50,261 bases of DNA from a virus, in IMG/VR virus record IMGVR_UViG_3300037508_000928, positions 1-50,261 of that record; one strand, written 5' to 3'. The notes below the pieces were generated by a model. The model searched no databases and was not told the origin of the DNA. It worked only from the letters and a program-made list of their open reading frames with translations. Position 1 is the stretch's first letter. Each line of letters starts with the position of its first letter. Shown here piece by piece: positions 13,430 to 29,885 of the stretch. The translations under genes and the position numbers were made by a program.

Positions 13430-14557
13430 ATGCCGATTACGGTCAACTTCAAGAGCCTGGGCGAGTCTGCCACGTATCCCGATGGCACGACCGAGGATGT
13501 GATCCACGACGATTACCAGCGCCGTCAATTCCGTGGTGGGTACAAGGCCAACCCGATTCAGTCGATCATGGGGCTGATGGAACACATCACCTCGCGCCCG
13601 ACTGCCCCTACGCCAGCGAGCGTAGACGGGGCCAGCGTTATCGGCCTAGCGCCTGACCAGACGACGGCGCTCCTGGACCGCGTGCAGCGCACCAACGAAG
13701 TTGAGCAGAACGCCTACCAGCAGGAGATTGCACGCGCGGCACAGGTCAAGGAGGCACAGGCCCAGCGCCAGTTCTCGATGCAGTCCCAGCAGCAGGACCA
13801 GCAGTTCCAGCTTGACCGAGACAAGGAGCAGGATGCCAAGACGACGAAGGAGAAGCTGGAAGGGACAGTGAAGCCAGACGGGCAAGGGGGCTACGACTGG
13901 GTACGCCCTGACCCTGTAACGGGTAAGCCACTCATCGACAAGCTCCAGAAAGGCTCGAACCAGTGGAAGTCGCTCAACATGCCCGATGGCGGCGTGTCAC
14001 AGGTGGAGATGGACCCCAGCGGCAGGATGCTCGGCACTCCCCAGACCGTTATTGCTGGCCAGAAGGACACAACGAACTGGCAGCAGGTAGGAAGCCCCTA
14101 TCAGACCGCTGATGGGCAATTTGTCCAGAACCTCATCAATCCCGAGACGCGGCAAATGGAAACCAAGGCTTTGCCCATGCCAGCAGCAAAGCCGCAGGCG
14201 CTCAAGATGGTAAAGGATACGGCTGGCAACCTGTTCGCCCAGTACACAGACCCGACGACCGGGGCAGTCACCCTCCGCAAAGCTGAGGTTCCCCCCGAGT
14301 GGGTGACTGAGCAAGCGAAGAAGGACGGGATTAACCTCGACGACTTCAACTCCGAGTGGGATGCCACGGTGATGGAAGAATTCGACGGTGTTATCGAGGC
14401 TGAAGATGTCCCCGCCGTCACGGAGCGGGTGCAGGCGAGGCTGTTGGCCAAGCAGACAGCAGTGAATTCCATGAACACGCCAGCGGAAGTAATCTTCGTG
14501 GGTAAGGACGGCAAACGGTATCTCGATCTCGGAGACGGTACAGCGGAGGAGCTTTAA
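13430..14557 (+). CDS. Internal virion / ejection-associated protein 3
   Basis: The protein has 375 residues. It has a Gln-rich coiled helix at about residues 85-135 (QFSMQSQQQDQQFQLDRDK), then a Gly/Pro/Asp-rich region with short strand repeats (GQGGYDWVRPDPVTGKP), and a helical end. The stop overlaps the start of the giant gene (TAATG), so the two are translated together. I take it as a partner or linker of the giant ejection protein; no enzyme motif is visible. Confidence 0.55.
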   Translation: MPITVNFKSLGESATYPDGTTEDVIHDDYQRRQFRGGYKANPIQSIMGLMEHITSRPTAPTPASVDGASVIGLAPDQTTALLDRVQRTNEVEQNAYQQEIARAAQVKEAQAQRQFSMQSQQQDQQFQLDRDKEQDAKTTKEKLEGTVKPDGQGGYDWVRPDPVTGKPLIDKLQKGSNQWKSLNMPDGGVSQVEMDPSGRMLGTPQTVIAGQKDTTNWQQVGSPYQTADGQFVQNLINPETRQMETKALPMPAAKPQALKMVKDTAGNLFAQYTDPTTGAVTLRKAEVPPEWVTEQAKKDGINLDDFNSEWDATVMEEFDGVIEAEDVPAVTERVQARLLAKQTAVNSMNTPAEVIFVGKDGKRYLDLGDGTAEEL

Positions 14558-17500
14558 TGGCTAAGGGCGATATTGTCCCGATTGCGAGTGTCCAGCAAGG
14601 CGGAACCGCGACTGCACCAATGGAATCTCAGACTGCAAAGCGGCGAGTTCCAATTGAAAGCGTCGCAGACCCTGTTGTATCTAAAGTCTTGGCTGCCGCA
14701 AAGCGCTACAACGTAAACCCTACCTTGGCCACTGCCGTTGCCAAGGCGGAATCGAACTTCGTCCAGCAGTCTGTCTCCCCGGTAGGAGCCACGGGCGTGA
14801 TGCAGCTCATGCCGGGAACGGCCAAGGACTTGGGCGTTGACCCGTGGAACGAGGACCAGAACATTGACGGCGGCGTGCGCTATCTCGGGCAGATGCTCGA
14901 ACGGGCCGGTGGCGATGTGGACAAGGCGCTCGAATACTACAACTTTGGCATGGGCAACGTGGATGCCGGGAAGCCCTTACCCGCTGAGACGGTGCAGTAC
15001 AAGGCCCGCATCAAGAAGCTCATGGGGATCACCGACCCGCCCATCACGGCGGCGCAGGCTGAAGCGATAATCCCGAAGCAGCAGAGCAATTTCTCGAAGG
15101 CCATGGGCATGGGGGACGTTCAAGCCCCTGTAGGCTGGCAGCCAACCGGCGAGGATGTCGCTGCCCCGGTGGCGGCGGTGCAAGACGCGCTACATGCAAT
15201 CCCCAAGTTCCCCGGCGAACGAGCACTGGCCGCGCAGGGCGAGCGCTACATGGAGTTCCTCAACCCTACGACCCCAGCAGGCCCGTGGGAACGAGGATTC
15301 ACTCAAGGGGCGACAAACGCCGCTACCCAAGGCAATGCCGTCAAGCGCGTAGTGGTCGGCGGGCTTGCTGACGCTGGCAGCGGCTTACTGAGCAGCGTGG
15401 CCACTTTGGGTGCTGACCGTAAGACCGCCGACCAGATCGCGGCGGACAAGGCTATTCTCTCGGAAGCGTCGTTAGAAACCGACAAACAGAATCTCGGTGC
15501 AGTCGGGCGTGTGCTCCGACCTGCCACTCAGAATGCCGTGTCGAACATAGCCCAAGTGGGCGTAGCGTCGGCTGGTGGCTTCCCCGTCATCGCTACCCAG
15601 TTCATGACGACCTCCTACGATGACGGGCTCCGCCAAGCGCAGGCCGCTGGCTTGCAGGGCGAGGACATGCTGAACTACGCACGGCGCCAGTCTCTCTACG
15701 AGGGCGGTGTCATGGCGGCATTCCAGGCCGTTGGCCTGCCCGGCCTTGAGAAGCTGCCGTTTATGGCCATCGCCCCCGCCGTGGTCAACCAGGTGAAAAC
15801 CTCACTCGCTCCCGCCATGAAGCGCACGCTCATGACCTTTGGGCAGGAGTTGCCTGAAGAGACTATCACCTGGGCGCTCCAGACGGCAGATTCCCAGATG
15901 TCGAACGTCAGAAAGCCGATGACGACAGAGGAATACACGAAGGAGTGGTTGAACCTCGCACTTGAAACGGCGCTGAGTGTCGGGGCGTCCAGCACTCGCG
16001 ACCTTGCCCGTGGCGTGCGCGACTCTGTGGTCAGCGACTTCAGCGGGATTGTCCAGCCGGATACCTTCAACCCTGAAATGCAGCTTGGCGGGGTTCTTCC
16101 CCAGCCCGCAGCCGAGGTGCCGGTCGAGGCGGACATAGCTGCCAGCCAGCAGGCCACGACCCCCGAGTCTCCCATCGTGGATATTCCAGCCGGGGAGGCC
16201 AACCCCGAGGAGCCTGAGCAGCCGAAGAAGAAGGCCAAGCTGATCTACGCCGACATGCCCACCGAGCAGCTTCAGTCGTTGCTGGAGCAGGGCGGCATGG
16301 CCAACCCTGTCAAGGTGGCGATCCAGCGGGAGTTGGCGAATCGGATCGCGCCCGAGCAGCCAGTGGCTCCCAAGCAGCCGTGGGATATGACGCGGGAGGA
16401 GTATGACCAAAGCCGCGTTGACGAACTTAATGCCCTCAACCCGCAACTTGGGGGGCGGTTGAAGCTGGAAATACTTAGTGAAGAAGAGCAGGCGCAACGT
16501 CCAACTCTTGATTCTGCGCCCGGCGCAAAATCGGTAGGCGGGCATTACGGTTCAACGATAACACGAGCTCAAAATGCGCCAAGCGGGACAGCCTCGCATG
16601 AAATACGGCACATGATTGATTTACTTCTTGGTGGAAACCAAGTTACTGCCTATGTTAATGACCTAAAAACAAAGTTTAAGGATCGATTTTCATTACTGAC
16701 AGACTATCTTAAATCAGCAAGAAAAGACGGAAAGATAGGCGGCAGGACGACGGTAGATGAAGAAACAGCACAAATGGTTCTTCATGCCTTTTATAAGGAT
16801 CGTGAAGGGCTAAGATCAGCCTCTCCAGATATTGTGCAGTTCTTAGAAGAGATGGGTGCTGATAAATATTCACACCTTCAAGATTCTCACAAATCAAAAG
16901 TGGAACAAGCCCTCCGTGACGGCAAGCCCGTCCCGCCCGCCGTGCTCGCTGAGTACCCCGACCTCGCGGAGAAGTACGGGAAGCCGACTCCCGGCCAGCA
17001 AATGCTGCGCAGGCCGGTAGCCGAACGGCTTGTGCCTGAGTTACAGCGTCTCCATTTCCCCACCACGTTCACGGGCCAGCCGACTCCCGGCCAACAGATG
17101 CTGCGCAGGCCGCAAGGGGAGGCTCCACAGGACACACTTTCGCAGCCGGAGACTTCCGAGCAAGTCCAAGGGAATACCCCTGCACAGGCAGATACCCCGG
17201 AAAGTACCCCGATAGCGGCTCCGGTGAATCAACCGTTGGAACTGCAATCGCCCGATGCCGTTCGTAAGGCAGCAGCAGCCCCAAAGATTGAAGAACTAAA
17301 GAGGCAATATGAGGAGGCGCGGCTCGTAAACAATGTGCGCGATGGGCTACGCATTGAGGCGCAGTTGCAGGGAGGACCAGAGTTTACTGACCCAGCAGCG
17401 CAAGCCGCTGTCAAGCAGCAACTGGTAGCCGTGGACCAAGCGATCAGTGAACGCAGGCCAGTGAATGCCGAAGCCATGAGAGATTGGGCCAATGTCGCTA

Positions 17501-20500
17501 CATCTAATGGTTTTGACGAAAGCGGCAACATACCGCGCCGTGGCATTCCTTCGGGCTACGCGCAAGACGGGGATGTTTACACCTTTCAACTTGACTCCCC
17601 CACCCCCGGCTTCCTTCCCCAAGCACAGGAACTCGCCAACCCCAACTGGAACAAGCCAGCCGCTCCTGACGCCAAGCAGCAAGCCCTCAAGGATGCCGCT
17701 CAGAACCTTGCAGCCATCGAGGGCAAGGCCGAGCCAGTCATAAGCGCTGGGCAGAATACCGCGTTCGACAAGCTGACGGAGAAGCCGAAGGAGCGTAAGC
17801 CGTGGTTTGAAAGCTATGAAGAGCTTTCTGAGCACTTGGCTACCGCCCTTCCCGATCACAGCGTTTCCCACGTTGGTCAATCAGTTTCAGTTTACGGGAA
17901 GTACAACGACCAGCAGTTGGTGAAGGAGTGGGCCGAAGCCCTTCCAATGCGCAGCGACGTGGACGCACTGGTCAAGAAGTTGCGCCCGCAAGAGCAGCCT
18001 GTAACTGATTCTGCTCCTGCCCCCACCCGCGCTGAGAAGATAGCCCAGCGCCGCGCGCGCGCCAAGGCAGAGCTTACGTCCGTTCCTGATGTGGCGCCGC
18101 AGACGGCTGGCCCCCGTGGACAGTACGCAATCCCTGGGGAAGAGGAAACGGTTCGGGCTCAGGAACAGGAAGTCGTGGACCGTGCGGCGTTCCGGGACAG
18201 GGTGCTGAGTGAATTCGAGGATCAGGAACTGACTGACCGTATTGTCACGGACCTTTGGCCCGCCGCGCGCAAAGCACCGGAATACATCAAGAAGGGAATG
18301 AGTATCGAGGAGACGACGACGACGATTCGGAATAACACCGACGAAACCTACCTTCGAGACTATCCCGACCTAAACGAGAACGCCCTCCTGCGCGTGCTGG
18401 ATGGACACGCTGAAGACATTGGCGCCAAGGACACCGCAGGGTTCCGTAGGCAGGTGGACAACCTTCAGACCATGCACCCCGACCTGCCCCGCAAGTCCAT
18501 TGAGCGCATGGTCGAGGCTGTTGACGCCGGTGATGCGAGAGCCGTCAAGGCGATCCTTCACCCAGGCAACCCCGGCTCTCACGACATATTCCAGGCCATA
18601 ACTGGCTATGAGTTGCCTTCTAAGAGCAAACGCACCCAGAAGGCAGTCCACGCAATTGTTGACGAGTGGTGGGGGAAGCTGGCGCCTGAGTCGCGGGTGC
18701 CAGAACTGGAACTAGACACATCACTTCCTCGTGAAAAATACATCAAGCTGTTTGTGGACAGGGACCCTGCTGTCCAGGCGGCAGCGGACGATCAGGTTGA
18801 GGATGCACGCCATCACGCTGAACGTGTAGCAGAAGGCCGCTGGCTTGCTGCTAATCCGAAAGCCCCCGTCGATGACATGAATGGGTTCCTTGCTGGAAAG
18901 ATTCCGATGCAGGCCGGGAACATCAAGAAGCAGTTGGCCAAGACGTACAACTTCAACGGCACGGAGTTGCAAACCTACCAAAGCTTCATCGAGAAGCATT
19001 GGTCGGACGGCAGCCTGATTGCGCAAATATACGATGACGGTGAAACGCGGCAGCACATCGTCAATGGCTACAACCTGCCAAAGACTGCATTCGATTATGC
19101 CCAGCACCTTCTCGGTGACAGAGCAATTCAAGAAACTCCCTTGCAGGCCAAGCAGGCGGAACTGCGTGACCTGATGCAGAAGATCAGAAATGAGAGTCAA
19201 TTCAACCGTAAGATTGAGCTCAATCAGAAGATCAACAAGGTGCGGTCTGAGATAGGTGAACTCAAGCGCCCCGACTGGGTAAAAGACGCGATTGCTGATA
19301 CAATCAATACGGAGACACCGACCGATGGACGCGAAGATATTCAAGGACAGCCTGACGAACAGCCCGATGTGGTGGGAGGCACTGGCGCACCTCGAAGAGA
19401 TGCAGCCCCGTCTTCTGGAGACTCTTCTGGCGAAACCGGAGAAGCTGGTGGAACTGCTGGATCACAGGACACAGCAGGCGATAGACGCGATATACGACCT
19501 TCAACAGAAGGGGATGAGCTACGAGGAAGCGGCGGAGCGGGTAAGCCCGGACGTACTTCGCCCAGGGTGGGAAGCCCAAGGGGGACTGCCGGAGATTCCA
19601 CTGAACGGGATGGGGGAACGGAAGCTGGCGGCGTTCAGAAAGGCAGCAATGGAGTAAAGGCGGAGAAGGTTGACGACGGCAAGCGGAACCACCGCATTGG
19701 CGAAGATGACACCATCGCGCCCGATGGCCAGATTTCCAAGATTAAAGCCAACCTGCGCGCGCTGCGAATCCTCAAGGAACTCGACCAGCAGGAGCGGGAT
19801 GCCACTCCCGAAGAACAGAAGGCTCTTGCCCAGTACACGGGTTGGGGACATTCCCCACAGGTCTTCGATGAAAAGAAGGCGCAATGGTTTGAAAACGAGT
19901 ACCCCTACTCCGTCTCCCAGCGGGACACCAAATGGGGCGACAAGTTCTACCAGCACTACAAGGAGGCTAAGGAGCTTCTTTCCCGCTCCGAGTGGATGGC
20001 TGGGCTCAAGTCCACGCAGTACGCGCACTACACGGCGAAGAACGTCGTGCAGTCCATGTGGAAGATCGCGGAGCGGCTTGGCTTCTCGGGCGGGCGCGTG
20101 CTCGAACCCGGCGCCGGTGTGGGCAACTTCCTTGGCCTGATGCCGGACGGCTTCAAAGGCACCACCTTCGTTGCCGTCGAACTTGACGACACGAGCGGGC
20201 GTATCCTGCAAAAGCTGTATCCGAAGGCCAAGATATTCATTAAGGGCTTCCAGGACGCCAAGATTCCGCCTAACTCCGTTGACTTGGTGATAACGAATGT
20301 CCCGTTCTCTTCCAATGGGCCGAAGGATACGCCGTATCCCACGCTGAACCTGCACAACTACTTCTTCGCCCGGAGCCTTGATGTGCTCAAACCTGGCGGC
20401 ATAGTGGTGGCAATCTCTACCCATTACACGATGGACGCCAATCCGAAGCAGCGGGAGTTTCTGGCGAGCAAGGGCAATCTTGTCGGCGCGATTCGATTGC

Positions 20501-23500
20501 CCAACAATGCTTTCAAAAAGAACGCAGGCACCGATGTAACGACCGACATCATCATCATGCAGAAGCCTACACAGAATTTTACCAAGGGCGAGTCATGGGC
20601 TGCCTTGGCCAACGTCGGCACGGACGATGCACCGATCATGGTGAACGAGTATTTTGCCGCGCATCCTGAAATGGTGCTCGGCACTCATTCCATGGAAGGC
20701 AGTATGTACGGCGGTGACGGCAAGGAGTACACCGTACTGCCCACAGGCGACGACCTGACCGAGCAGATACGCGCGGCAATCGAGAAACTGCCCGAGGGCA
20801 TAGTTGGAGCCCACGTCGCTGACGACATTGATTTCGGCGCTATCGACGAAGCTGCTGGTGAGAAGGAGGGTTCCTTCCACGTCAAGGGCGGCAAGGTCGT
20901 GCGCGTTGAAAGTGGTAGCTTCGTCGATGCTGAATTATCTGCCGATTTGCAGGCGCGCGCCAAAGGCTTCATTGGACTGCGCGATCATTACATCAAGCAT
21001 CTGGCGCTGATGCGCAAGCCAGAAACCACCGACGAGCAATTTGCTGACTCGATGGCCGAACTGAATCGGCTCTATGATGCCTATGCAAAGAAGCACGGCG
21101 GCGTCAACGAGAAAAATACCAGACCCTTCCGCAGCGACCCAGGCTACTTCCTGCTGGCCGGTACGGAGAAAGTCACAACAACCATCAATCCTTTAACGAA
21201 GAGGAAACTCGAAACCACTTCAAAGGGTGACGTTTACTCGAAGCGCACCATTGACCCCAGCGTGCGCCCGACCAAGGCAGGTAATGCCGAAGACGCCCTT
21301 AGAATCTCGCTCACATATCGCGGGCAGATTGATTCGGATTACATGGCGCAACTCACAGGGGAGAGCGCAGAGGATACGCTCGCGGAGTTATCTTCCAGTG
21401 GGCTTATCTTCATCAACCCTGAGAATGGACTCGCAGAGCTTTCCGCGTTCTACCTGAGCGGCAACGTCAAAAAGAAGCTGGCCATAGCAAAGGATGCAGG
21501 CGAGGACTACAAGGCGAACGTCGAAGCGCTGGAGAAGGTGCAGCCGTCCCGCGTTCCGTATTCGAAGATCAAGCCTCAACTGGGGGCAACTTGGATACCC
21601 TCGACGCTGGTACAGGAGTTTGCCGATAAGGTGCTGGGACGCGGCTTTGGGGCAATCAAGGTTTCCTATCTTGGGAAGGCTGCTGACGCTTGGCTTATCG
21701 AAACCAAGGGTAGTGGCGCCAAGCGCGACTTTCTTGGTCCGCGTGGGCTCCAAGAATTTGCGGTAATCGAGAAGTCAAAGACCAACCCTGATGCTCCCGG
21801 CTACATGCGGCGACATGCACTGGACGTTCTTAATGGCGTGCTGAATCTGAAAGACCTCATCATCAAGGACGAGGTGGAAGATAAGAAGTACGTTACAAAC
21901 GAAGAAATGACGCGGGTGGCGCGCATCAAGGCCGAGCAACTTAAAGAAGCGTTCATAACCTGGATAAACAGCAACCCCGACCGTATGCTCGCCATCGAGG
22001 ATGCTTACAACGAGCTCTACAACTTCTACGTTCCTCCCGTTTATGACGGCTCGCATTTGGTCTTGCCGGGTAAGTCGAACACCGTCAAGTTATATGACCA
22101 CCAGTACAATGCCATCTGGCGCATGATCGTGGAACGCCGTGGGATGGTGGCCCATGCGGTAGGTGCTGGCAAGACCTTCGAGATTATCGGGGCATGTATG
22201 GAAATGCGCCGATTGGGCATCTCCAAGAAACCAATGATCGTGGTTCAGAATTCTACGATGGAGCAGTACGCGCGCTCCTTCACAAAACTCTATCCTTCTG
22301 CGAATGTCCTCGTGGCAGACGTGGAAAGTCTGAAGAAGAATAAGCGCAAGCAGTTCCTTGCACACATCGCCGCGAGCGACTACGACGCGGTGATCATCGC
22401 TCAAAGCCAGTTTGACCGTCTGCCCAGCGACCCCGTTACTGAGACGACCGTGACCCAGAAACTCATTGATGAACTGCGCATATCGCACAACGAATTGAAA
22501 GAGGCCGAGGGAGAGCGTAGTCAGTCGGTGAAACAACTGGCGAAGTCCATCGAAAAGCTGGAAGACAGACTTAGCAAGATCACGGCAAGCATGAAAGGGC
22601 GGCAGGACGACGTAATCTACTTCGAGAGCCTTGGCGTGGATACGCTGTTCATTGATGAGGCGCACAACTACAAGAAGCCGCCATTCGTCACGAAGATGCC
22701 CAGCCTCCTCGGGCTGAACAAAGACTCATCGGATATTGCCACGAACCTGATGTTGAAAGCGCATTACATCCGGCATATCAATGCTGGGAAGGGCGTCTTC
22801 CTTGCCACTGGCACGCCGGTAACCAACACGCTTGGTGAAGCGTGGCACATGCTGAACCTTACGAGCCCAGACGTACTCGCGGAATTCAACGCAGAGACAT
22901 TCGACCGCTTTGCTTCTACCTTTGCCAAACGCACAGTGGAGTGGAGCCAGAACGCGGGCGGTTCATGGGTGCCCAAATCGGCACTGACCAGATTCACCAA
23001 CGGGCAGGAATTGATAAAGCTCATACGTTCCCAGTGGGACGTGCTCATGAAAGACGACCTTGATGAGCAGATGATTGCAGCAGGCAAGGACATGCCCAAG
23101 CTGGAGGGGGGCGCGCCGAAGATTATTTCAGTAGAAGCCACGCCCAGAGTCAAGGAATTCTCCGATTGGGCTACGCGCGTCTATCAAGACTTCACGAAAC
23201 TGACCGGAGAGGCGAAGCAAGAGTTCGGCTATATCCCTGTAATGCTTTACGGCGCCATGAAAGCGGTAGCCACTGATTCACGCCTCGTGGACCCGACTGC
23301 CCCTGACGAGGCAGGTTCCAAAGTAAACGTGATGCTGAAAAATGTTATCGAGATTTACGATGACACCAAAAAAAACAAGTCCACGCAGATGATCTTCTGC
23401 GATATGTTCAACCCCTTCAAGATGGATAAGTTACACGCCTTCGCTGGGGGTATTAAGGACGATGATGCAGACGGAGACATCATCCTTAATGATGGTGAGG

Positions 23501-26500
23501 ATGTCGAGGAAACTGCCGCCGATAAGGAAAAAGAGCGCGAGTCCGAGGTCAACGGCTTTGTGGTGAACGACATCATAGCCAAGCTGGTAAAGGCGGGGGT
23601 GAAGCGGGAAGAGATTGGCGTAATGGCCACGGCGAACACCGACGCTAAGAAGCAGGCCATATTCGACGGCATGAATTCTGGGTCAATTCGCATCCTGATT
23701 GGTAGCTCGCAGCGCATGGGCGTCGGCGTGAACGCCCAGGACAAGATGATAGCCCTGCACCATCTGGATACTCCGTGGTATCCAGCGCTGCTTGAACAGC
23801 GCGAGGGTCGTATCCTCCGCCAAGGGAATGAGAACCCAGAGGTAAAAATCTTCTCCTATGGAATGAAGAAGACGCTCGACTCTGCCATCTACTCCAAAGT
23901 GCTCTACAAATCAAAGTTCATCCAGCAGATTCTCAGTGGCAAGATGAATGATGATGAATTTGAAGACCCGGCTGGGCAGATTGTCGTCTCTATGGAAGAG
24001 GCGATGGCCGCATTTGCTGACGACCCGAGACTCTTCCGAAAGCTGGACATACAGAACGAACTACGCGATCTGGAAATCCGCCGACGTTCCTACCTCGACA
24101 ACGTGGTGCGCGCCAAAGAAAAGATAGCCGAGCTTGCACGCGGTATCGAATACTGGAACGCCCGCATTAAAGACGCGGCAGAAGCTATTCCTGGCTCCAA
24201 GGTAAGCGGCAACCCCACCATAACGGTGGACGGCAAAGACTACACGGCGAAGACGTTCAAGGACATCTTCGAGAAGCAGGTAGAGACTGTACCGGCGAAA
24301 CTTGCCGCCGACAACATCGCGGCGGCAGACAGCTATACAATACAGCAATGGGCAGAGGGTAAAGCTGAAAAGCCAGCAAGCGTCTTCCTTTATGGCGAGA
24401 TTGGTGGGAGCGATATTAAATTTGCCGTGGTCGCTGGGAGGGCTCCAGGACAGATTACTGATGGCGATTCGATAAAGACCGATTACTCCATACGCATTTG
24501 GACCCCCAGTGTCGGTGTGCGGTCGGAAGCGAAGAAGATCGAATCGTTCATCAACGCCTTGCAGGCAGTTGAACGTGAAACGCAGAAGAAACTGCGCGAG
24601 GCCCAGGATACGCTTGCGGCTAGGAAGCAAGACCTTTCTGTCGCTGAGGAGATGGCGAAGGGTAGAACCTTCCCACAGGAAGATGAATACCAGTCCTTGA
24701 AGAAGGAACTGGACGAATTAAATGAATCGCTGGCCAAGGCACAGGAACTGGACTCGGACGGCCCAGCGCCAGCCACGGCCATGGACCCGATTGGTGATCT
24801 CGCTCGGCTGCTGGATGCAGGGAAGCCGTTCGCCCAGGCTACCTACGAGCGGGCCAAGCCATACCTGCGGGCACTGTACGACGCGGCCAAGGACGCCAAG
24901 GCCTTCATCGCCACGGTGGTGAAGCAGATTGGCGAGCACGCCCGCCGCTATGCCACCAAGGCCGCAATCGAGTTTCGCCGCGCTGGGAACCGGGGGGCGG
25001 CGCTGAATCCGTTCGGTGAGAAGCCCAAGCCAAAGGTTACGCCCTCGGGCGCACCGCCTGTTGGGGAATTCCGCCAGGATGGCGACGACCCCGACCAGCC
25101 AGCACGCCTGCCCCAGTCCGCCATGCTGCGCATGGTCAAGAACCTTCTGGGGAACACGCCCGACATTGTGAAGCGTTTCCCGAGGAAGCCTGAAAGACTG
25201 GGCGTGTTCAATCATGGCTTAGGCGATGCCACTATCCGCCTGCGGGCTGACCTTGCCATTGGCGAGCGCGTATCTGAGAGCGTCTCGAAGAAGCCTTTCG
25301 GTGAAGATGAGAAATCCGACTTCATTGAGGCAGTGGCCGAGCAGCTTGACGTTTCCACTGACGAGATTGTGGTGCGCACCGAGACTGAGCGCTCGGGCGG
25401 TCGCACGGTATACGTCATGCGGGCCTACCTGCGCGACGAGGATTACGCCGCGCGCGTGTTCGCCCACGAGTTGGGGCACGCGATTGACTACCTGCCAGAC
25501 GGAACACTCAAGCGCGGCAATCTCCTTGGGCGCATTGCCAAGCTGCAAATGTACCTGAAGACGTCCCTGGCGCCTGATCCTGAATCGCTGGAGGAACCCT
25601 TCACGAAGCAGGAGCGCGCGAAGTGGCGCCGGGAGGCTGCTGCTGATGCAAAGCGGGACTATGGCCCGTTCGACAAAGACCAGAGCGATGAACGGTCCTT
25701 CTACACGAGGGAGTATTACAGGTATCGTCTCATTCAGGAAGCCGAAGATCGTGGGATGCTGCTGGAGAACGAGATCAAGTCTGCGATTCCGGGCGCATGG
25801 AAAGTAAAGTATCCCGGCGTCCGCGACGAACTAAAGGCACTCACCCACTGGTGGAACCCCTTCGACGCAGACCGTGACCCGAAGTACACCAAGTATCGGT
25901 ACTCTGGCAAGGAACTCTATGCCGAGGCCATGAGCGTGCTTCTCAACAATCCGCGCATGTTCGAGGCGAAAGCCCCTGAGTTTGCGCGCGGCTTCTTCGC
26001 CTACCTTGAGCGCAACCCCAAGGTGCAGGAACTCTATGAGCAGATTCAGACCGAACTCCACGGTGGGACCTTCGAGGGCACCGTGCTCGATGACCTGTAC
26101 GCCATGCAGGAGCGAGGCGAGATCAAGCGCAAGGCAAAGCACAAGCGCGATAAGCAGCCACTAAGCAAGCAGGTCAACGACTTCTTCCACGATCTGAAGC
26201 TCACCCTGATTGACCGGCAGGCAGATGTTTGGCGGACGGGCGATTCCTGGCTTGACCCCTACGTGTGGTTGCGGGAGATGAAATATCTCCACTCGTCTCA
26301 TCATGGGTTTCAGCGCGATATTCAGAAGATGGTATTGAACCCGCTCCGTGTTGTCGGGTTGAGCGAGAAAGACTTTGGCGTCTTCCTGTTCTTGCGCCGT
26401 ACCTCAACCGAGCGCAAATACCTATTCAACCCTATGGGCGTTACCGAGTCCGAATCTAAGAATTTGCTAGAGGAACTAGAGGGGCGCGTGGGTAGTGATG

Positions 26501-28620
26501 GAATGGATGCTCTGCGGAAGGCTGCCAACGAGTACCACGATTTGCGCAAGGAGTATGTTTTCCCGCTGCTTCGCAAATCACGGATATTCTCCAAGGAGAT
26601 GCTGGAGCTCATTGAGAGCAACGAGAACTACGCCACGTTCAACGTGATTGAATATATCGAGGAATTCTATTCCACGAAGTCAAACGCAGACAATGCTCGT
26701 ATCTTCCATCAGTTGGGCACACTGAAGGATGTCGAGAACGTCTTCGAGGCCACGATCCTGAAGGACATGGCTCTGATGCGGCAGGCCACGAAGAACAAGG
26801 CCAAGATGACGGTGATTGATGTCGGCAAAGACATGGGCGAAATCGAAGATGCCCCGATGCGCCGCAAGGCGGGTGGGGAGGCATTCTACGAAGAGCCGAA
26901 AGACCCGAACCTGACGGTCATGAAATACTCGCTGGACGGCAAGGTGCAGGCCGTTATCATCAACAAGGACATCGCACAGAATTACGAGAGTAATCTGGTC
27001 GAGATGAACAATTTCACCAACATCGTCCAGTCACTCTACTTCTCTGGCTGGTTCCGCAAGTCGCTCACCACATGGAACCCCGGCTTTGGCCCGATTGCTT
27101 TCGGGAAGGATGTCTGGGGCAGTTACAAGAACCTTCCTGGAAAGAACCCGCTCCGTACTATCGAGAGCCTTATCATGACGGCACGGGATGCCTACATTGA
27201 TGTTGCCTTAAAACAGTCCACGATGCTGACGCATTTCGCTTACAAGAACAACTTGCTGATCCCCGACATCTCCTACGACGCTGGAAGTGAACTTGATTAT
27301 GAGACGGAACTTGAGCGACAGACTTGGGTCCATGGGCTGATTGCTGATAAACACCCAAACAGAAACATTTTCTTGCGCACGCTCAAAAAGACGGGCGATA
27401 CAGTAGAAGCGTGGAACCTGTTCTTCGAGCGCTGGTCGAAACTGGCTGGCACCTACCGCATGATCAACGAAGGTTACTTCGAGCGGGAGGGTATGCAGGC
27501 CAGCCAGCGCATCCGCACACAAGCAGGCACTCCTGATGCGCTTGCTGGGGGCAAGTGGCGGCGCCCCATGAACGGCATATTCCTGTTCTCGAATATCGGG
27601 ATACAAGGCCTGGAGGCTACGTACCGGGCTGCCAAGGAACAGAAGCTGTCCTATCTGTTCAAGGTGGCTGCGGTCGATGTCGCTCCCAAGCTGCTGATGC
27701 GCGGCTTCCAAATGGGGCTGGCAGGCTGGCTGTTTGGGCTGGACGAGGAAGATGACTGGCTGAAGCGATTCTACAACGCGGTTCCCGACAGGGACATGGC
27801 GAACTACACTATCATCCCTCTTGGTTTCAGGAAGGATGGCACGCCGGTCTATATCCCACTTCCTTCAGACCACGTTGGCATGTTCTTCGGTGGGCTGGCA
27901 TGGGGCGTAACGCGCCCATTGGTCGATGAAAATATCGACATGAGCGAAATTGGACGCACGTTCGTAAACCAGAGCCCAATCAAGCCTGACGGATTGACGC
28001 TTCCTCCTGCGCTGGCCCTTGACCTCATGCTGCTGGCCACGGGGGTATCTCCCTACGACACGTGGCGTGGGACCCCTGCGATTAGCCGTGGTGCGATGGA
28101 TGCGGGTGTCGTTGCTCCCGCCATGCGAGGAGAGATTCCTCCCGCCGTCAAGGAAATAGCCTTGTACGAAGCACAGAAATACTTCAGCACGGTATTCGTT
28201 TTCAACAGCGATGCTGCAAAGGACGATATGTTTAACGAGATAGGGCGTATGCCGGTTGTCGGCCCCATCCTGCGTCGGTACGTTCGAGCCTCAGACAAGG
28301 GTATCGAGCAGCGCATGAGGCGGGAGAAGTCGAGCATCCTGGCCGAGCAGGCAGCGACTTCCGAGCAGATTGGCGGCATCATCACGAAGCAGATCAAGGC
28401 GGCTGGCCGGGGCGGGGACCGCATCGACGCCTGGCGCGAAGTGAACCGGCAGGTCCGAGAGGGGAAGTTGCTGTATGATGGCCACAACTGGCGCACGATG
28501 ACGGGGCTGGTGCAGCGGCGATTCAATCACGCTTGGACCATGACCTACGGCACGCCAGAAGAGAAGCTGAAGGCGACCACGAGCAAGGCGGTTCGGCGGG
28601 AAATGACGACCGACAACTGA
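14557..28620 (+). CDS. Giant virion protein: transglycosylase, metallopeptidases, DarB-like methylase-helicase
   Basis: The 4687-residue protein takes up 28% of the genome. Residues 37-157 are an SLT transglycosylase (catalytic E65 in AKAESNF, GVMQLMP 80-86). Residues 660-780 hold HEIRH (681-685) with E735/E736, in AT-rich DNA. Residues 1590-1700 are a disordered linker that overlies a nested gene. Residues 1720-2030 are an N6-adenine methylase-like domain (LEPGAGVGNF 1849-1858, NVPF 1914-1917). Residues 2500-3110 are an SNF2-like helicase (GAGKT 2536-2540, DEAH 2700-2703, QREGR 3081-3085). HELGH is at 3637-3641 with E3790. The C-terminus (about 4150-4687) resembles polyvalent-protein end domains such as LPD38. 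P1 DarB, which rides in the virion and blocks restriction, has the same methylase-helicase pair. Likely role: ejected with DNA to cut peptidoglycan and protect it. A GGAGGAG site precedes the ATG. Confidence 0.85.
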   Translation: MAKGDIVPIASVQQGGTATAPMESQTAKRRVPIESVADPVVSKVLAAAKRYNVNPTLATAVAKAESNFVQQSVSPVGATGVMQLMPGTAKDLGVDPWNEDQNIDGGVRYLGQMLERAGGDVDKALEYYNFGMGNVDAGKPLPAETVQYKARIKKLMGITDPPITAAQAEAIIPKQQSNFSKAMGMGDVQAPVGWQPTGEDVAAPVAAVQDALHAIPKFPGERALAAQGERYMEFLNPTTPAGPWERGFTQGATNAATQGNAVKRVVVGGLADAGSGLLSSVATLGADRKTADQIAADKAILSEASLETDKQNLGAVGRVLRPATQNAVSNIAQVGVASAGGFPVIATQFMTTSYDDGLRQAQAAGLQGEDMLNYARRQSLYEGGVMAAFQAVGLPGLEKLPFMAIAPAVVNQVKTSLAPAMKRTLMTFGQELPEETITWALQTADSQMSNVRKPMTTEEYTKEWLNLALETALSVGASSTRDLARGVRDSVVSDFSGIVQPDTFNPEMQLGGVLPQPAAEVPVEADIAASQQATTPESPIVDIPAGEANPEEPEQPKKKAKLIYADMPTEQLQSLLEQGGMANPVKVAIQRELANRIAPEQPVAPKQPWDMTREEYDQSRVDELNALNPQLGGRLKLEILSEEEQAQRPTLDSAPGAKSVGGHYGSTITRAQNAPSGTASHEIRHMIDLLLGGNQVTAYVNDLKTKFKDRFSLLTDYLKSARKDGKIGGRTTVDEETAQMVLHAFYKDREGLRSASPDIVQFLEEMGADKYSHLQDSHKSKVEQALRDGKPVPPAVLAEYPDLAEKYGKPTPGQQMLRRPVAERLVPELQRLHFPTTFTGQPTPGQQMLRRPQGEAPQDTLSQPETSEQVQGNTPAQADTPESTPIAAPVNQPLELQSPDAVRKAAAAPKIEELKRQYEEARLVNNVRDGLRIEAQLQGGPEFTDPAAQAAVKQQLVAVDQAISERRPVNAEAMRDWANVATSNGFDESGNIPRRGIPSGYAQDGDVYTFQLDSPTPGFLPQAQELANPNWNKPAAPDAKQQALKDAAQNLAAIEGKAEPVISAGQNTAFDKLTEKPKERKPWFESYEELSEHLATALPDHSVSHVGQSVSVYGKYNDQQLVKEWAEALPMRSDVDALVKKLRPQEQPVTDSAPAPTRAEKIAQRRARAKAELTSVPDVAPQTAGPRGQYAIPGEEETVRAQEQEVVDRAAFRDRVLSEFEDQELTDRIVTDLWPAARKAPEYIKKGMSIEETTTTIRNNTDETYLRDYPDLNENALLRVLDGHAEDIGAKDTAGFRRQVDNLQTMHPDLPRKSIERMVEAVDAGDARAVKAILHPGNPGSHDIFQAITGYELPSKSKRTQKAVHAIVDEWWGKLAPESRVPELELDTSLPREKYIKLFVDRDPAVQAAADDQVEDARHHAERVAEGRWLAANPKAPVDDMNGFLAGKIPMQAGNIKKQLAKTYNFNGTELQTYQSFIEKHWSDGSLIAQIYDDGETRQHIVNGYNLPKTAFDYAQHLLGDRAIQETPLQAKQAELRDLMQKIRNESQFNRKIELNQKINKVRSEIGELKRPDWVKDAIADTINTETPTDGREDIQGQPDEQPDVVGGTGAPRRDAAPSSGDSSGETGEAGGTAGSQDTAGDRRDIRPSTEGDELRGSGGAGKPGRTSPRVGSPRGTAGDSTERDGGTEAGGVQKGSNGVKAEKVDDGKRNHRIGEDDTIAPDGQISKIKANLRALRILKELDQQERDATPEEQKALAQYTGWGHSPQVFDEKKAQWFENEYPYSVSQRDTKWGDKFYQHYKEAKELLSRSEWMAGLKSTQYAHYTAKNVVQSMWKIAERLGFSGGRVLEPGAGVGNFLGLMPDGFKGTTFVAVELDDTSGRILQKLYPKAKIFIKGFQDAKIPPNSVDLVITNVPFSSNGPKDTPYPTLNLHNYFFARSLDVLKPGGIVVAISTHYTMDANPKQREFLASKGNLVGAIRLPNNAFKKNAGTDVTTDIIIMQKPTQNFTKGESWAALANVGTDDAPIMVNEYFAAHPEMVLGTHSMEGSMYGGDGKEYTVLPTGDDLTEQIRAAIEKLPEGIVGAHVADDIDFGAIDEAAGEKEGSFHVKGGKVVRVESGSFVDAELSADLQARAKGFIGLRDHYIKHLALMRKPETTDEQFADSMAELNRLYDAYAKKHGGVNEKNTRPFRSDPGYFLLAGTEKVTTTINPLTKRKLETTSKGDVYSKRTIDPSVRPTKAGNAEDALRISLTYRGQIDSDYMAQLTGESAEDTLAELSSSGLIFINPENGLAELSAFYLSGNVKKKLAIAKDAGEDYKANVEALEKVQPSRVPYSKIKPQLGATWIPSTLVQEFADKVLGRGFGAIKVSYLGKAADAWLIETKGSGAKRDFLGPRGLQEFAVIEKSKTNPDAPGYMRRHALDVLNGVLNLKDLIIKDEVEDKKYVTNEEMTRVARIKAEQLKEAFITWINSNPDRMLAIEDAYNELYNFYVPPVYDGSHLVLPGKSNTVKLYDHQYNAIWRMIVERRGMVAHAVGAGKTFEIIGACMEMRRLGISKKPMIVVQNSTMEQYARSFTKLYPSANVLVADVESLKKNKRKQFLAHIAASDYDAVIIAQSQFDRLPSDPVTETTVTQKLIDELRISHNELKEAEGERSQSVKQLAKSIEKLEDRLSKITASMKGRQDDVIYFESLGVDTLFIDEAHNYKKPPFVTKMPSLLGLNKDSSDIATNLMLKAHYIRHINAGKGVFLATGTPVTNTLGEAWHMLNLTSPDVLAEFNAETFDRFASTFAKRTVEWSQNAGGSWVPKSALTRFTNGQELIKLIRSQWDVLMKDDLDEQMIAAGKDMPKLEGGAPKIISVEATPRVKEFSDWATRVYQDFTKLTGEAKQEFGYIPVMLYGAMKAVATDSRLVDPTAPDEAGSKVNVMLKNVIEIYDDTKKNKSTQMIFCDMFNPFKMDKLHAFAGGIKDDDADGDIILNDGEDVEETAADKEKERESEVNGFVVNDIIAKLVKAGVKREEIGVMATANTDAKKQAIFDGMNSGSIRILIGSSQRMGVGVNAQDKMIALHHLDTPWYPALLEQREGRILRQGNENPEVKIFSYGMKKTLDSAIYSKVLYKSKFIQQILSGKMNDDEFEDPAGQIVVSMEEAMAAFADDPRLFRKLDIQNELRDLEIRRRSYLDNVVRAKEKIAELARGIEYWNARIKDAAEAIPGSKVSGNPTITVDGKDYTAKTFKDIFEKQVETVPAKLAADNIAAADSYTIQQWAEGKAEKPASVFLYGEIGGSDIKFAVVAGRAPGQITDGDSIKTDYSIRIWTPSVGVRSEAKKIESFINALQAVERETQKKLREAQDTLAARKQDLSVAEEMAKGRTFPQEDEYQSLKKELDELNESLAKAQELDSDGPAPATAMDPIGDLARLLDAGKPFAQATYERAKPYLRALYDAAKDAKAFIATVVKQIGEHARRYATKAAIEFRRAGNRGAALNPFGEKPKPKVTPSGAPPVGEFRQDGDDPDQPARLPQSAMLRMVKNLLGNTPDIVKRFPRKPERLGVFNHGLGDATIRLRADLAIGERVSESVSKKPFGEDEKSDFIEAVAEQLDVSTDEIVVRTETERSGGRTVYVMRAYLRDEDYAARVFAHELGHAIDYLPDGTLKRGNLLGRIAKLQMYLKTSLAPDPESLEEPFTKQERAKWRREAAADAKRDYGPFDKDQSDERSFYTREYYRYRLIQEAEDRGMLLENEIKSAIPGAWKVKYPGVRDELKALTHWWNPFDADRDPKYTKYRYSGKELYAEAMSVLLNNPRMFEAKAPEFARGFFAYLERNPKVQELYEQIQTELHGGTFEGTVLDDLYAMQERGEIKRKAKHKRDKQPLSKQVNDFFHDLKLTLIDRQADVWRTGDSWLDPYVWLREMKYLHSSHHGFQRDIQKMVLNPLRVVGLSEKDFGVFLFLRRTSTERKYLFNPMGVTESESKNLLEELEGRVGSDGMDALRKAANEYHDLRKEYVFPLLRKSRIFSKEMLELIESNENYATFNVIEYIEEFYSTKSNADNARIFHQLGTLKDVENVFEATILKDMALMRQATKNKAKMTVIDVGKDMGEIEDAPMRRKAGGEAFYEEPKDPNLTVMKYSLDGKVQAVIINKDIAQNYESNLVEMNNFTNIVQSLYFSGWFRKSLTTWNPGFGPIAFGKDVWGSYKNLPGKNPLRTIESLIMTARDAYIDVALKQSTMLTHFAYKNNLLIPDISYDAGSELDYETELERQTWVHGLIADKHPNRNIFLRTLKKTGDTVEAWNLFFERWSKLAGTYRMINEGYFEREGMQASQRIRTQAGTPDALAGGKWRRPMNGIFLFSNIGIQGLEATYRAAKEQKLSYLFKVAAVDVAPKLLMRGFQMGLAGWLFGLDEEDDWLKRFYNAVPDRDMANYTIIPLGFRKDGTPVYIPLPSDHVGMFFGGLAWGVTRPLVDENIDMSEIGRTFVNQSPIKPDGLTLPPALALDLMLLATGVSPYDTWRGTPAISRGAMDAGVVAPAMRGEIPPAVKEIALYEAQKYFSTVFVFNSDAAKDDMFNEIGRMPVVGPILRRYVRASDKGIEQRMRREKSSILAEQAATSEQIGGIITKQIKAAGRGGDRIDAWREVNRQVREGKLLYDGHNWRTMTGLVQRRFNHAWTMTYGTPEEKLKATTSKAVRREMTTDN
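16500..16915 (+). other. AT-rich inserted cassette within the giant gene (HEIRH domain)
   Basis: By hand count, 16621-16900 is about 39% GC, while both flanks are clearly near 60%. The frame stays open and encodes the HEIRH metallopeptidase-like domain. Codons here favour A/T endings (AAA, TTA, GAT, CTT) unlike the rest of the gene. This marks a recent horizontal insertion of a single domain. Confidence 0.7.
16983..17112 (+). repeat. Direct repeat encoding PTPGQQMLRRP twice
   Basis: Two copies of about 32 bases (16983-17014 and 17079-17110) differ at two or three positions and encode PTPGQQMLRRP at residues 810-820 and 842-852 of the giant protein. The 64 bases between them encode a different linker. 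The pair sits right behind the AT-rich cassette, so it may mark a duplication or recombination junction. Confidence 0.7.
19325..19657 (+). CDS. Nested out-of-frame gene inside the giant gene
   Basis: ATG 19325 opens 110 codons in the +1 frame relative to the giant gene, with GGAG ten bases upstream and a TAA stop at 19655-19657. The product is compact, helical and non-repetitive: MDAKIFKDSLTNSPMWWEAL, then LLETLLAKPEKLVELLDHRT, QQAIDAIYDLQQKGMSYEEA and a basic end RKLAAFRKAAME. In the same DNA the giant frame reads as Gly/Ser/Asp/Thr/Arg low complexity. By hand count, third positions are G or C in about 81 of 110 codons here, against about 42 of 110 in the giant frame. That is what a real gene in this frame predicts. 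The function is unknown. It may also be an ancestral separate gene bridged when two larger genes fused. Confidence 0.65.
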   Translation: MDAKIFKDSLTNSPMWWEALAHLEEMQPRLLETLLAKPEKLVELLDHRTQQAIDAIYDLQQKGMSYEEAAERVSPDVLRPGWEAQGGLPEIPLNGMGERKLAAFRKAAME

Positions 28621-28725: not shown

Positions 28726-28765
28726 CTATACTGTAAGTGTTTGCAGCACAACACTTAAAGAATCG
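28726..28765. other. Candidate attP core: lox-like inverted repeat
   Basis: Two 16-base arms (28726-28741 and 28750-28765) match as inverted repeats at 13 of 16 positions, including a perfect inner TAAGTGTT/AACACTTA. They flank an asymmetric eight-base centre TGCAGCAC. Inverted arms of 11-13 bp around a 6-8 bp crossover region are the normal core of tyrosine recombinase sites. It lies 67 bases upstream of the integrase gene. An RNA hairpin or operator is the alternative; no T-run follows. Confidence 0.5.
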
Positions 28766-28767
28766 CC

Positions 28768-28797
28768 TTGACGTACCTGATACCATAACGATACCAT
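28768..28797 (+). promoter_or_regulatory. Integrase promoter with GATACCAT direct repeats
   Basis: TTGACG at 28768-28773, an 18-base spacer and TACCAT at 28792-28797 form a moderate sigma70 promoter. Two GATACCAT copies (28779-28786 and 28790-28797) are 11 bases apart, about one helix turn, and overlap the -10 box. They could be integrase arm sites or an autoregulatory operator. Confidence 0.5.
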
Positions 28798-28832
28798 CCT
28801 GCCAGCTTAATCGCGTTGATTTTGGAGGCAAT

Positions 28833-29885
28833 ATGGCTATCAAGAAGGCAGTCGAATACCGGGGAGTCACGCTCTCCAAGCCGAAGGGGAGCAAGTTCTA
28901 CTCGATGCGCTGGCGCAATGCGGCAGGCCAGCAGGTGCGCCGCTCGACGGGGACATCTGACCCGGCGCTGGCCAAGCAGATTCGAGACTCCCTGGCGGAA
29001 CAGCTTCTCCGCTCGCGCTTCAACATCGAGCCCACGGCGAAGGACTTCACTCCTGACGACGCTTGGGACTTCTACATTGAGCACCAGTCCGAAGTGTCCG
29101 AGAGGACGCTCTATCACGCGCTTAGTGCCTGGAGGCGCTTCTGGAAGGTGACGGGCTCACCTACGCTGGCTTCCGTGCAGCCAGTTGACATCCTTCGCTT
29201 CCAGAAGCTAATGCAGGCCGAGGGGCGAAAGCCCAGCTACGTGAACAACATCATGCGGGTTGTCTCATCGGTCTACGTCAAGTTGGTGCGCTGGGGGGAA
29301 CTCACTTGCGCCAATCCCTTTGCCGCTGTGGACAGGGTAAAGGAAGGAGCGCCCGCCCCGAAGTATCGCCCGTGGCCAGAAGTCGAGGCGATGCTCACCG
29401 TGGCGAAGAAGCAGGGCGACGACATCTACCTGTTTTGCATCCTGTGTTCTCATGCCGGAGCCCGCCACGGGGAGGCTATCGCCAGTCGGTGGGAAGATGT
29501 TGGATGGGAAAACGGCAGCTTCCGCATCCGTGGAACAAAGACGCGGGGGAGTGCAGCCACAATCCCGCTCCACGACGCGCTACGGGCTGCGCTGTGGCCT
29601 TATCGCAAAGAGAGCGGGTACATCGTGGCAAATGGCACCGACGCCCATCCTGACCCACTACGCCCTCACGCGCGCTGGGGGTATCAGTCACGCTGGGAGA
29701 CATTGGTGAAGGCAACCGGATTCAAGGGGTCGCCGCACACCCTTCGCCACTCGTTTGCAACTCACTTGCTCGAACTGGGATATGACCCAGTGTTGCTTGT
29801 GAAGCTGATGCGGCATACGAATCTGGCGATGACTTCGCACTACGCAAACCTGCTGGCCGTCGTCCCCACGATGGACAGATTCTAA
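28833..29885 (+). CDS. int: Tyrosine-family integrase
   Basis: The protein has 350 residues and integrates the phage by strand exchange between attP and attB. The catalytic set is visible: R211 (in AGARHGE), H302-x-x-R305 (HTLRHSFATHLLELG), H328 (LMRHTN) and the nucleophile Y337 (SHYANL). An N-terminal arm-type domain (residues 1-60) and core-binding SAM-like domain (70-165) precede the catalytic half. I chose ATG 28833 for the TTGGAGG site nine bases upstream; an in-frame ATG-like start 96 bases earlier lies inside the candidate attP. It shows that the phage can be temperate. It follows the giant late gene in the same direction. Confidence 0.93.
   Translation: MAIKKAVEYRGVTLSKPKGSKFYSMRWRNAAGQQVRRSTGTSDPALAKQIRDSLAEQLLRSRFNIEPTAKDFTPDDAWDFYIEHQSEVSERTLYHALSAWRRFWKVTGSPTLASVQPVDILRFQKLMQAEGRKPSYVNNIMRVVSSVYVKLVRWGELTCANPFAAVDRVKEGAPAPKYRPWPEVEAMLTVAKKQGDDIYLFCILCSHAGARHGEAIASRWEDVGWENGSFRIRGTKTRGSAATIPLHDALRAALWPYRKESGYIVANGTDAHPDPLRPHARWGYQSRWETLVKATGFKGSPHTLRHSFATHLLELGYDPVLLVKLMRHTNLAMTSHYANLLAVVPTMDRF

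Follow-up and report, generated by a model that had tools for sequence, protein, structure and literature searches.

Does the 110-codon open reading frame at positions 19325-19657 of the viral DNA analysed here encode a protein of its own, nested out of frame within the largest gene of this phage, or is it a by-product of the longer frame that surrounds it? The whole stretch of DNA, called the window below, comprises 50,261 nucleotides (IMG/VR record IMGVR_UViG_3300037508_000928, positions 1 to 50,261), and coordinates given without a locus or accession are window positions. The surrounding gene (14557-28620, forward strand) encodes a DarB-like polyvalent protein of 4687 aa, with a transglycosylase SLT domain (residues 45-136, 14689-14964; PF01464, E = 1.4e-17), a methyltransferase-like region (19741-21021) located directly 3′ of the nested gene and showing 30-46% identity to annotated DarB-like proteins (E down to 8e-49), and an SNF2-related helicase domain (residues 2526-2639, 22132-22473; PF00176, E = 2.4e-8), all on the forward strand. 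A phage integrase gene (28737-29885; PF00589, E = 1.1e-21) is located directly downstream of the giant gene, and the phage is therefore probably temperate.

The nested gene, also on the forward strand, runs from ATG to TAA in frame +1 relative to the giant gene (MDAKIFKDSL...FRKAAME*; 110 codons plus TAA), and its ATG lies 10 bases beyond a Shine-Dalgarno-like GGAG (19311-19314), so that the start, the stop and the GGAG described in the initial annotation are all present. G/C contents at codon positions 1, 2 and 3 are.676,.378 and.730 in the nested frame and.736,.682 and.382 in the giant frame across the same DNA, as compared to.612,.412 and.675 for the entire giant gene; for 330 bases, the normal coding signature thus belongs to the nested frame. 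The computed third-position values (73% and 38%) agree with the hand count made earlier (about 74% and 38%), and composition bears out the earlier description of the giant frame at this point (19327-19656) as a low-complexity linker of Gly, Ser, Asp and Arg. The stop-free run that contains the nested gene measures 124 codons and is only the second longest in the +1 frame of the giant gene (the longest being 160); length by itself is therefore no proof, and the case rests on relatives. A second forward-strand ATG frame of 110 codons is found within the giant gene at 25226-25558, and one stretch of the giant gene (16387-16957) has an unusually low GC3 (0.31-0.41), with no frame switch, and is perhaps an acquired segment.

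When the nested protein was used directly as a query against Pfam, PHROGs, phage genomes (tblastn), viral contigs and PDB sequences, no relative was found; matches of the protein or its family to UPF0181 and to Rz spanins were dropped as weak. Loci were therefore collected with the adjacent methyltransferase region as the query; this region is 32-41% identical to annotated DarB-like proteins and led to 168 loci from viral contigs and bacterial genome contigs. A tblastn search of these loci with the nested protein found similar sequence just 5′ of the methyltransferase region (38% identity over 103 residues in L014, 31% in L013, 35% in L090, and 40% over 67 residues in L020, L021, and L057). 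The earlier proposal to search the nested protein as a separate gene thus gave nothing by the direct route, and relatives appeared only among loci fetched through the methyltransferase region; when the four closest nested proteins served as queries in another scan of viral sequences, only loci already known came back. An iterated HMM seeded with the nested protein was run over the open frames of the loci in all six frames and, at convergence, comprised 116 matches, 111 of which lie inside a giant open frame, all in +1, in phages, metagenome-assembled genomes (MAGs), and mobile elements of Clostridia. Phage nested genes mostly end within ~260 bases of the methyltransferase region, and those of the Clostridia elements are found about 0.7 to 4.7 kb upstream of it. 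Several loci below the threshold, including BcepIL02, 8P, and USP_25, carry a +1 frame in the same slot that encodes other proteins, some of them similar to each other; these may be distant relatives, judging from weak matches between profiles and from a core that they have in common. Among phage-type relatives with an intact linker, we found no clear case in which the nested frame is closed by stops while the giant frame continues, the pattern that the initial annotation had named as evidence against the gene. No recognisable nested frame was identified in the Agrobacterium pTi methylase (L183).

This distribution also bears on the quality of the window sequence. Two compensating indels introduced by sequencing or assembly could shift a true linker out of frame and would account for a coding signature that changes frame for 330 bases; however, the same switch, with its own start and stop, recurs across contigs, MAGs, and genomes of cultured phages, over 100 of them, which already contradicts this explanation and leaves it a negligible probability.

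Because the window has no close relative (the nearest nested protein is only 38% identical), selection was measured in relatives of the window rather than in the window itself. A table of alignment-guided pairs was set aside as biased toward the nested frame, and DNA-level alignments and a permutation test were used instead. In the DNA-level alignments of 20 relative pairs, substitutions in the flanks fall mostly at third positions of the giant frame, whereas those in the nested segment mostly affect giant first positions, equivalent to third positions of the nested frame; for the pair L010/L012, counts by giant codon position are [27,14,9] in the nest and [70,49,221] in the flanks (p = 1e-9). 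Six of the 20 pairs (L003/L078, L023/L033, L040/L052, L112/L122, L144/L149, and L098/L152) presented no significant shift, some of them holding very few changes.

The initial annotation had called for a comparison of substitution rates in the two frames, which was carried out by redistributing the observed changes among like bases in 18 relative pairs that are partly non-independent (L086, L006, L080, and L025 were each used twice). Nested amino-acid changes were below expectation in all 18 pairs, with p <= 0.012, and mostly <0.002, in 16; giant-frame changes were significantly reduced in none (lowest p = 0.066). Observed and expected nested changes were, for example, 5 and 18.4 in L004/L038, 19 and 34.9 in L010/L012, 13 and 21.7 in the BcepIL02-type pair L088/L080, and 19 and 37.7 in the 8P-type pair L079/L006, with giant-frame changes over the nested segment near or above expectation in these pairs; the L024/L025/L028 group held few changes (p = 0.034 and 0.24). 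The giant frame contains no stop in 13,985 codons across the nested genes, as expected from how the cases were chosen. The sequence of the giant frame across the nested gene is thus nearly neutral, the frame only staying open, in line with the earlier claim that selection acts on the nested frame and that the low-complexity giant frame is its by-product.

A chance open frame, with a compositional artefact of the Gly/Ser-rich linker, would be compatible with the long stop-free alternative frames that are common in this GC-rich giant gene, but it is contradicted by conservation in remote relatives, by substitutions concentrated at nested third positions, and by purifying selection, and we give it next to no weight. 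The nested frame stands out from chance because relatives keep its frame, its position, and its sequence, and because of the substitution pattern and the start signals described below; a real conserved gene almost certainly overlaps the giant gene.

An ATG with a Shine-Dalgarno match of at least 4 bases was found near the start of the conserved part in 94 of 105 distinct nested genes (90%). Matches of at least 5 bases precede 76% of nested genes as compared to 4.9% of other +1 ATGs in the same giant genes, a contrast that is somewhat inflated since the best candidate per gene was taken. In L094, L008, L086, and L063, the open stretch of the nested frame begins no more than a few codons ahead of the conserved start, directly at an ATG. 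The start signals and the late-opening frames favour internal initiation over frameshifting, and a separate product is very probably made by internal initiation on the giant mRNA. Under a programmed +1 frameshift, the nested sequence would instead end a shortened N-terminal product as its C-terminal domain, with no separate protein. All cases do lie in the same +1 frame, and orf33 of Sinorhizobium phage PBC5 (L170, 1-6309) joins the N-terminal part of the giant protein in frame to TnpV-like sequence and then stops, with the methyltransferase frame open from 5733. However, the PBC5 arrangement may reflect a genuine one-base shift or a fault in the old sequence record, free-standing TnpV genes exist, and neither the frequent start signals nor the frames that open at the ATG fit a frameshift, which we consider improbable. 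Matches to the C-terminus of the "endolysin" profile phrog_938 were rejected as a link to lysis; the TnpV-like tail of this profile probably reflects the in-frame reading of PBC5 orf33.

The kinship to TnpV emerged from the clostridial members of the family, which are Pfam TnpV (PF14198) proteins with E values of about 1e-42 to 1e-45 (143-153 bits, cut-off 27); the nested genes from two phage contigs of faecal origin and from Virgibacillus likewise score far above the cut-off. Phage nested members reach at best sub-threshold scores against this model (13.9-23.7 bits), and TnpV is absent among the Pfam matches of the window protein up to E = 1. A profile of the phage nested family matched the TnpV profile with a probability of 93.5% over 53 columns, and the corresponding value for a profile of the nearest kin of the window protein alone was 50.7; an HLxExxPxxxxxL...L core is common to phage nested proteins and TnpV. 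A profile match to designed helical repeats was put down to chance similarity between helical sequences. As the initial annotation had proposed, the product is predicted to be helical, with a confident AlphaFold2 model (pLDDT 85; 87 for TnpV), and the models of the window protein and TnpV present three core helices in the same order (13, 8-9, and 24-26 residues). TnpV is modelled with extra N-terminal strands and without the C-terminal tail of the phage nested proteins. Fold searches of the PDB with both helical models gave no clear match. The model of the window protein aligned to 2apl (PG0816 of P. gingivalis, a DUF1896 protein) with Z = 6.3 and 1.9 A over 62 residues at 26% identity, hinting at a possible link to a Bacteroidetes mobile-element family; 2apl was not listed in the search with the TnpV model. 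The nested product is thus likely to be a remote relative of TnpV, and we put the probability that the frame is a conserved, separately started TnpV-like gene at roughly 0.85, a figure that excludes its function.

TnpV genes are also found outside an open giant frame. Among 20 TnpV loci from four Clostridia genomes, 11 have TnpV covered by an open giant frame at least about 780-900 codons long, and in the other nine both remaining frames are closed by stops, indicating that free TnpV is real and that nesting is no automatic property of TnpV sequence. The actinobacterial plasmid pACHL02 has a TnpV-like gene (L185:5585-5932; E = 1.8e-4) that is annotated separately; it directly precedes a helicase-methyltransferase gene, the open frame of which also covers it. 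In a tree, the free Clostridia forms fall among the nested ones with weak support; because this tree is poorly resolved and was sampled through nested cases, it was not used for polarity. The earlier suggestion that two genes fused across an older, still conserved gene is thus favoured in part, through the remote TnpV kinship and the free-standing family members; as regards history, the giant gene may have come to be fused over a gene that was already there, or free TnpV genes may have escaped from nested ones.

A comparable geometry was observed in Campylobacter. An unannotated 159-codon +1 frame lies within the SNF2/methyltransferase-helicase gene of C. jejuni plasmid pCJABK49 (L184:5474-5950) and of pTet from strain 81-176 (NC_006135.1:8635-9111), with AAGGAG six bases ahead of its ATG, and was found in 206 Campylobacter plasmid records. 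This frame is under strong purifying selection (33 nested changes, 62.9 expected; 74 giant-frame changes, 66.1 expected); comparison with the nested gene of the window did not demonstrate homology.

For the phage genes, we propose that ribosomes that initiate internally on the giant mRNA would produce a helical TnpV-like protein of ~110 aa, while those translating the giant frame would read through the nested DNA and produce a flexible linker joining the N-terminal (transglycosylase) part of the giant protein to its methyltransferase-helicase part. The nested product would be made together with the giant protein and may act in the same step, in which DNA enters the cell and is shielded from host restriction. 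This accessory role, in DNA entry or restriction evasion, is a tentative suggestion drawn from genomic association, as the small gene is almost always located 5′ of a DarB-like methyltransferase-helicase; the finding of TnpV without the giant gene counts against it. An excisionase role in phages appears less likely since the phage nested gene travels with a giant virion-type gene, an argument that is weak in the window, where an integrase gene follows the giant gene. A broader and rather doubtful extension would make the small gene a near-universal, unannotated partner in the DarB-like giants of phages, conjugative elements, and plasmids, the small and giant proteins forming one DNA-entry unit and transposon TnpV being a free-living descendant.

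DarB-like giants of Bcep22-like phages (BcepIL02 gp70 and JC1 gp69) likewise have an SLT domain, a methyltransferase region, and a helicase. In the BcepIL02 record, the giant gene is the sole entry at this slot, yet the nested frame is present (L007). In 21 phage records with a nested relative identified by tblastn, the listed feature is the giant gene, or orf33 in PBC5, and none has a separate nested gene annotated. Full-text searches of a collection of open-access papers for TnpV, DarB-like proteins, and nested or overlapping phage genes turned up no account of the arrangement; the paper that reportedly founded the Bcep22-like group, Gill et al. 2011, may mention it. The JC1 paper mentions no nested gene in the giant gene (PMC9144972), and neither TnpV nor "overlap" occurs in the text of a review of polyvalent proteins (PMC5512222). 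A gene that spans many phage groups and mobile elements would thus lie inside one with years of annotation and study behind it, adding an overlooked small protein to cultured phages such as BcepIL02, VvAW1, PEp14, Itty13, and POI1126, accounting for the low-complexity linker at this point of the giant proteins, and tying these proteins to TnpV, so that the action of a TnpV-like protein becomes directly testable.

In bacteria and phages there are, to our knowledge, few documented cases of long nested genes on the same strand for which a selection signal has been measured. TnpV, a small protein known from Tn4451-type elements and from mobile elements of Clostridia, is known as a free-standing gene, with a role in excision postulated from its similarity to lambda Xis (PMC3158075). 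The nearest precedent that we found is ShiLan, where an HNH endonuclease gene lies out of frame inside phage methylase genes (PMC11855218); both are small out-of-frame genes within a phage methylase gene, the host frame of which is still open. This shared geometry would also fit a selfish insertion, the nested gene being a passenger of the giant gene like the homing HNH genes; however, the gene is not sporadic but occupies one site in nearly every phage-type giant gene examined, and domain searches of the nested proteins for a nuclease domain (HNH or other) found none, making a passenger very improbable. Unlike the ShiLan homing nuclease, the conserved nested family of the window is thus TnpV-like and near-universal at one site. 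The embedded Rz/Rz1 spanin genes described for JC1 (PMC9144972) also encode two complete proteins in two frames of one stretch, but those proteins are unrelated to the nested family, in which the longer frame appears close to neutral over the overlap.
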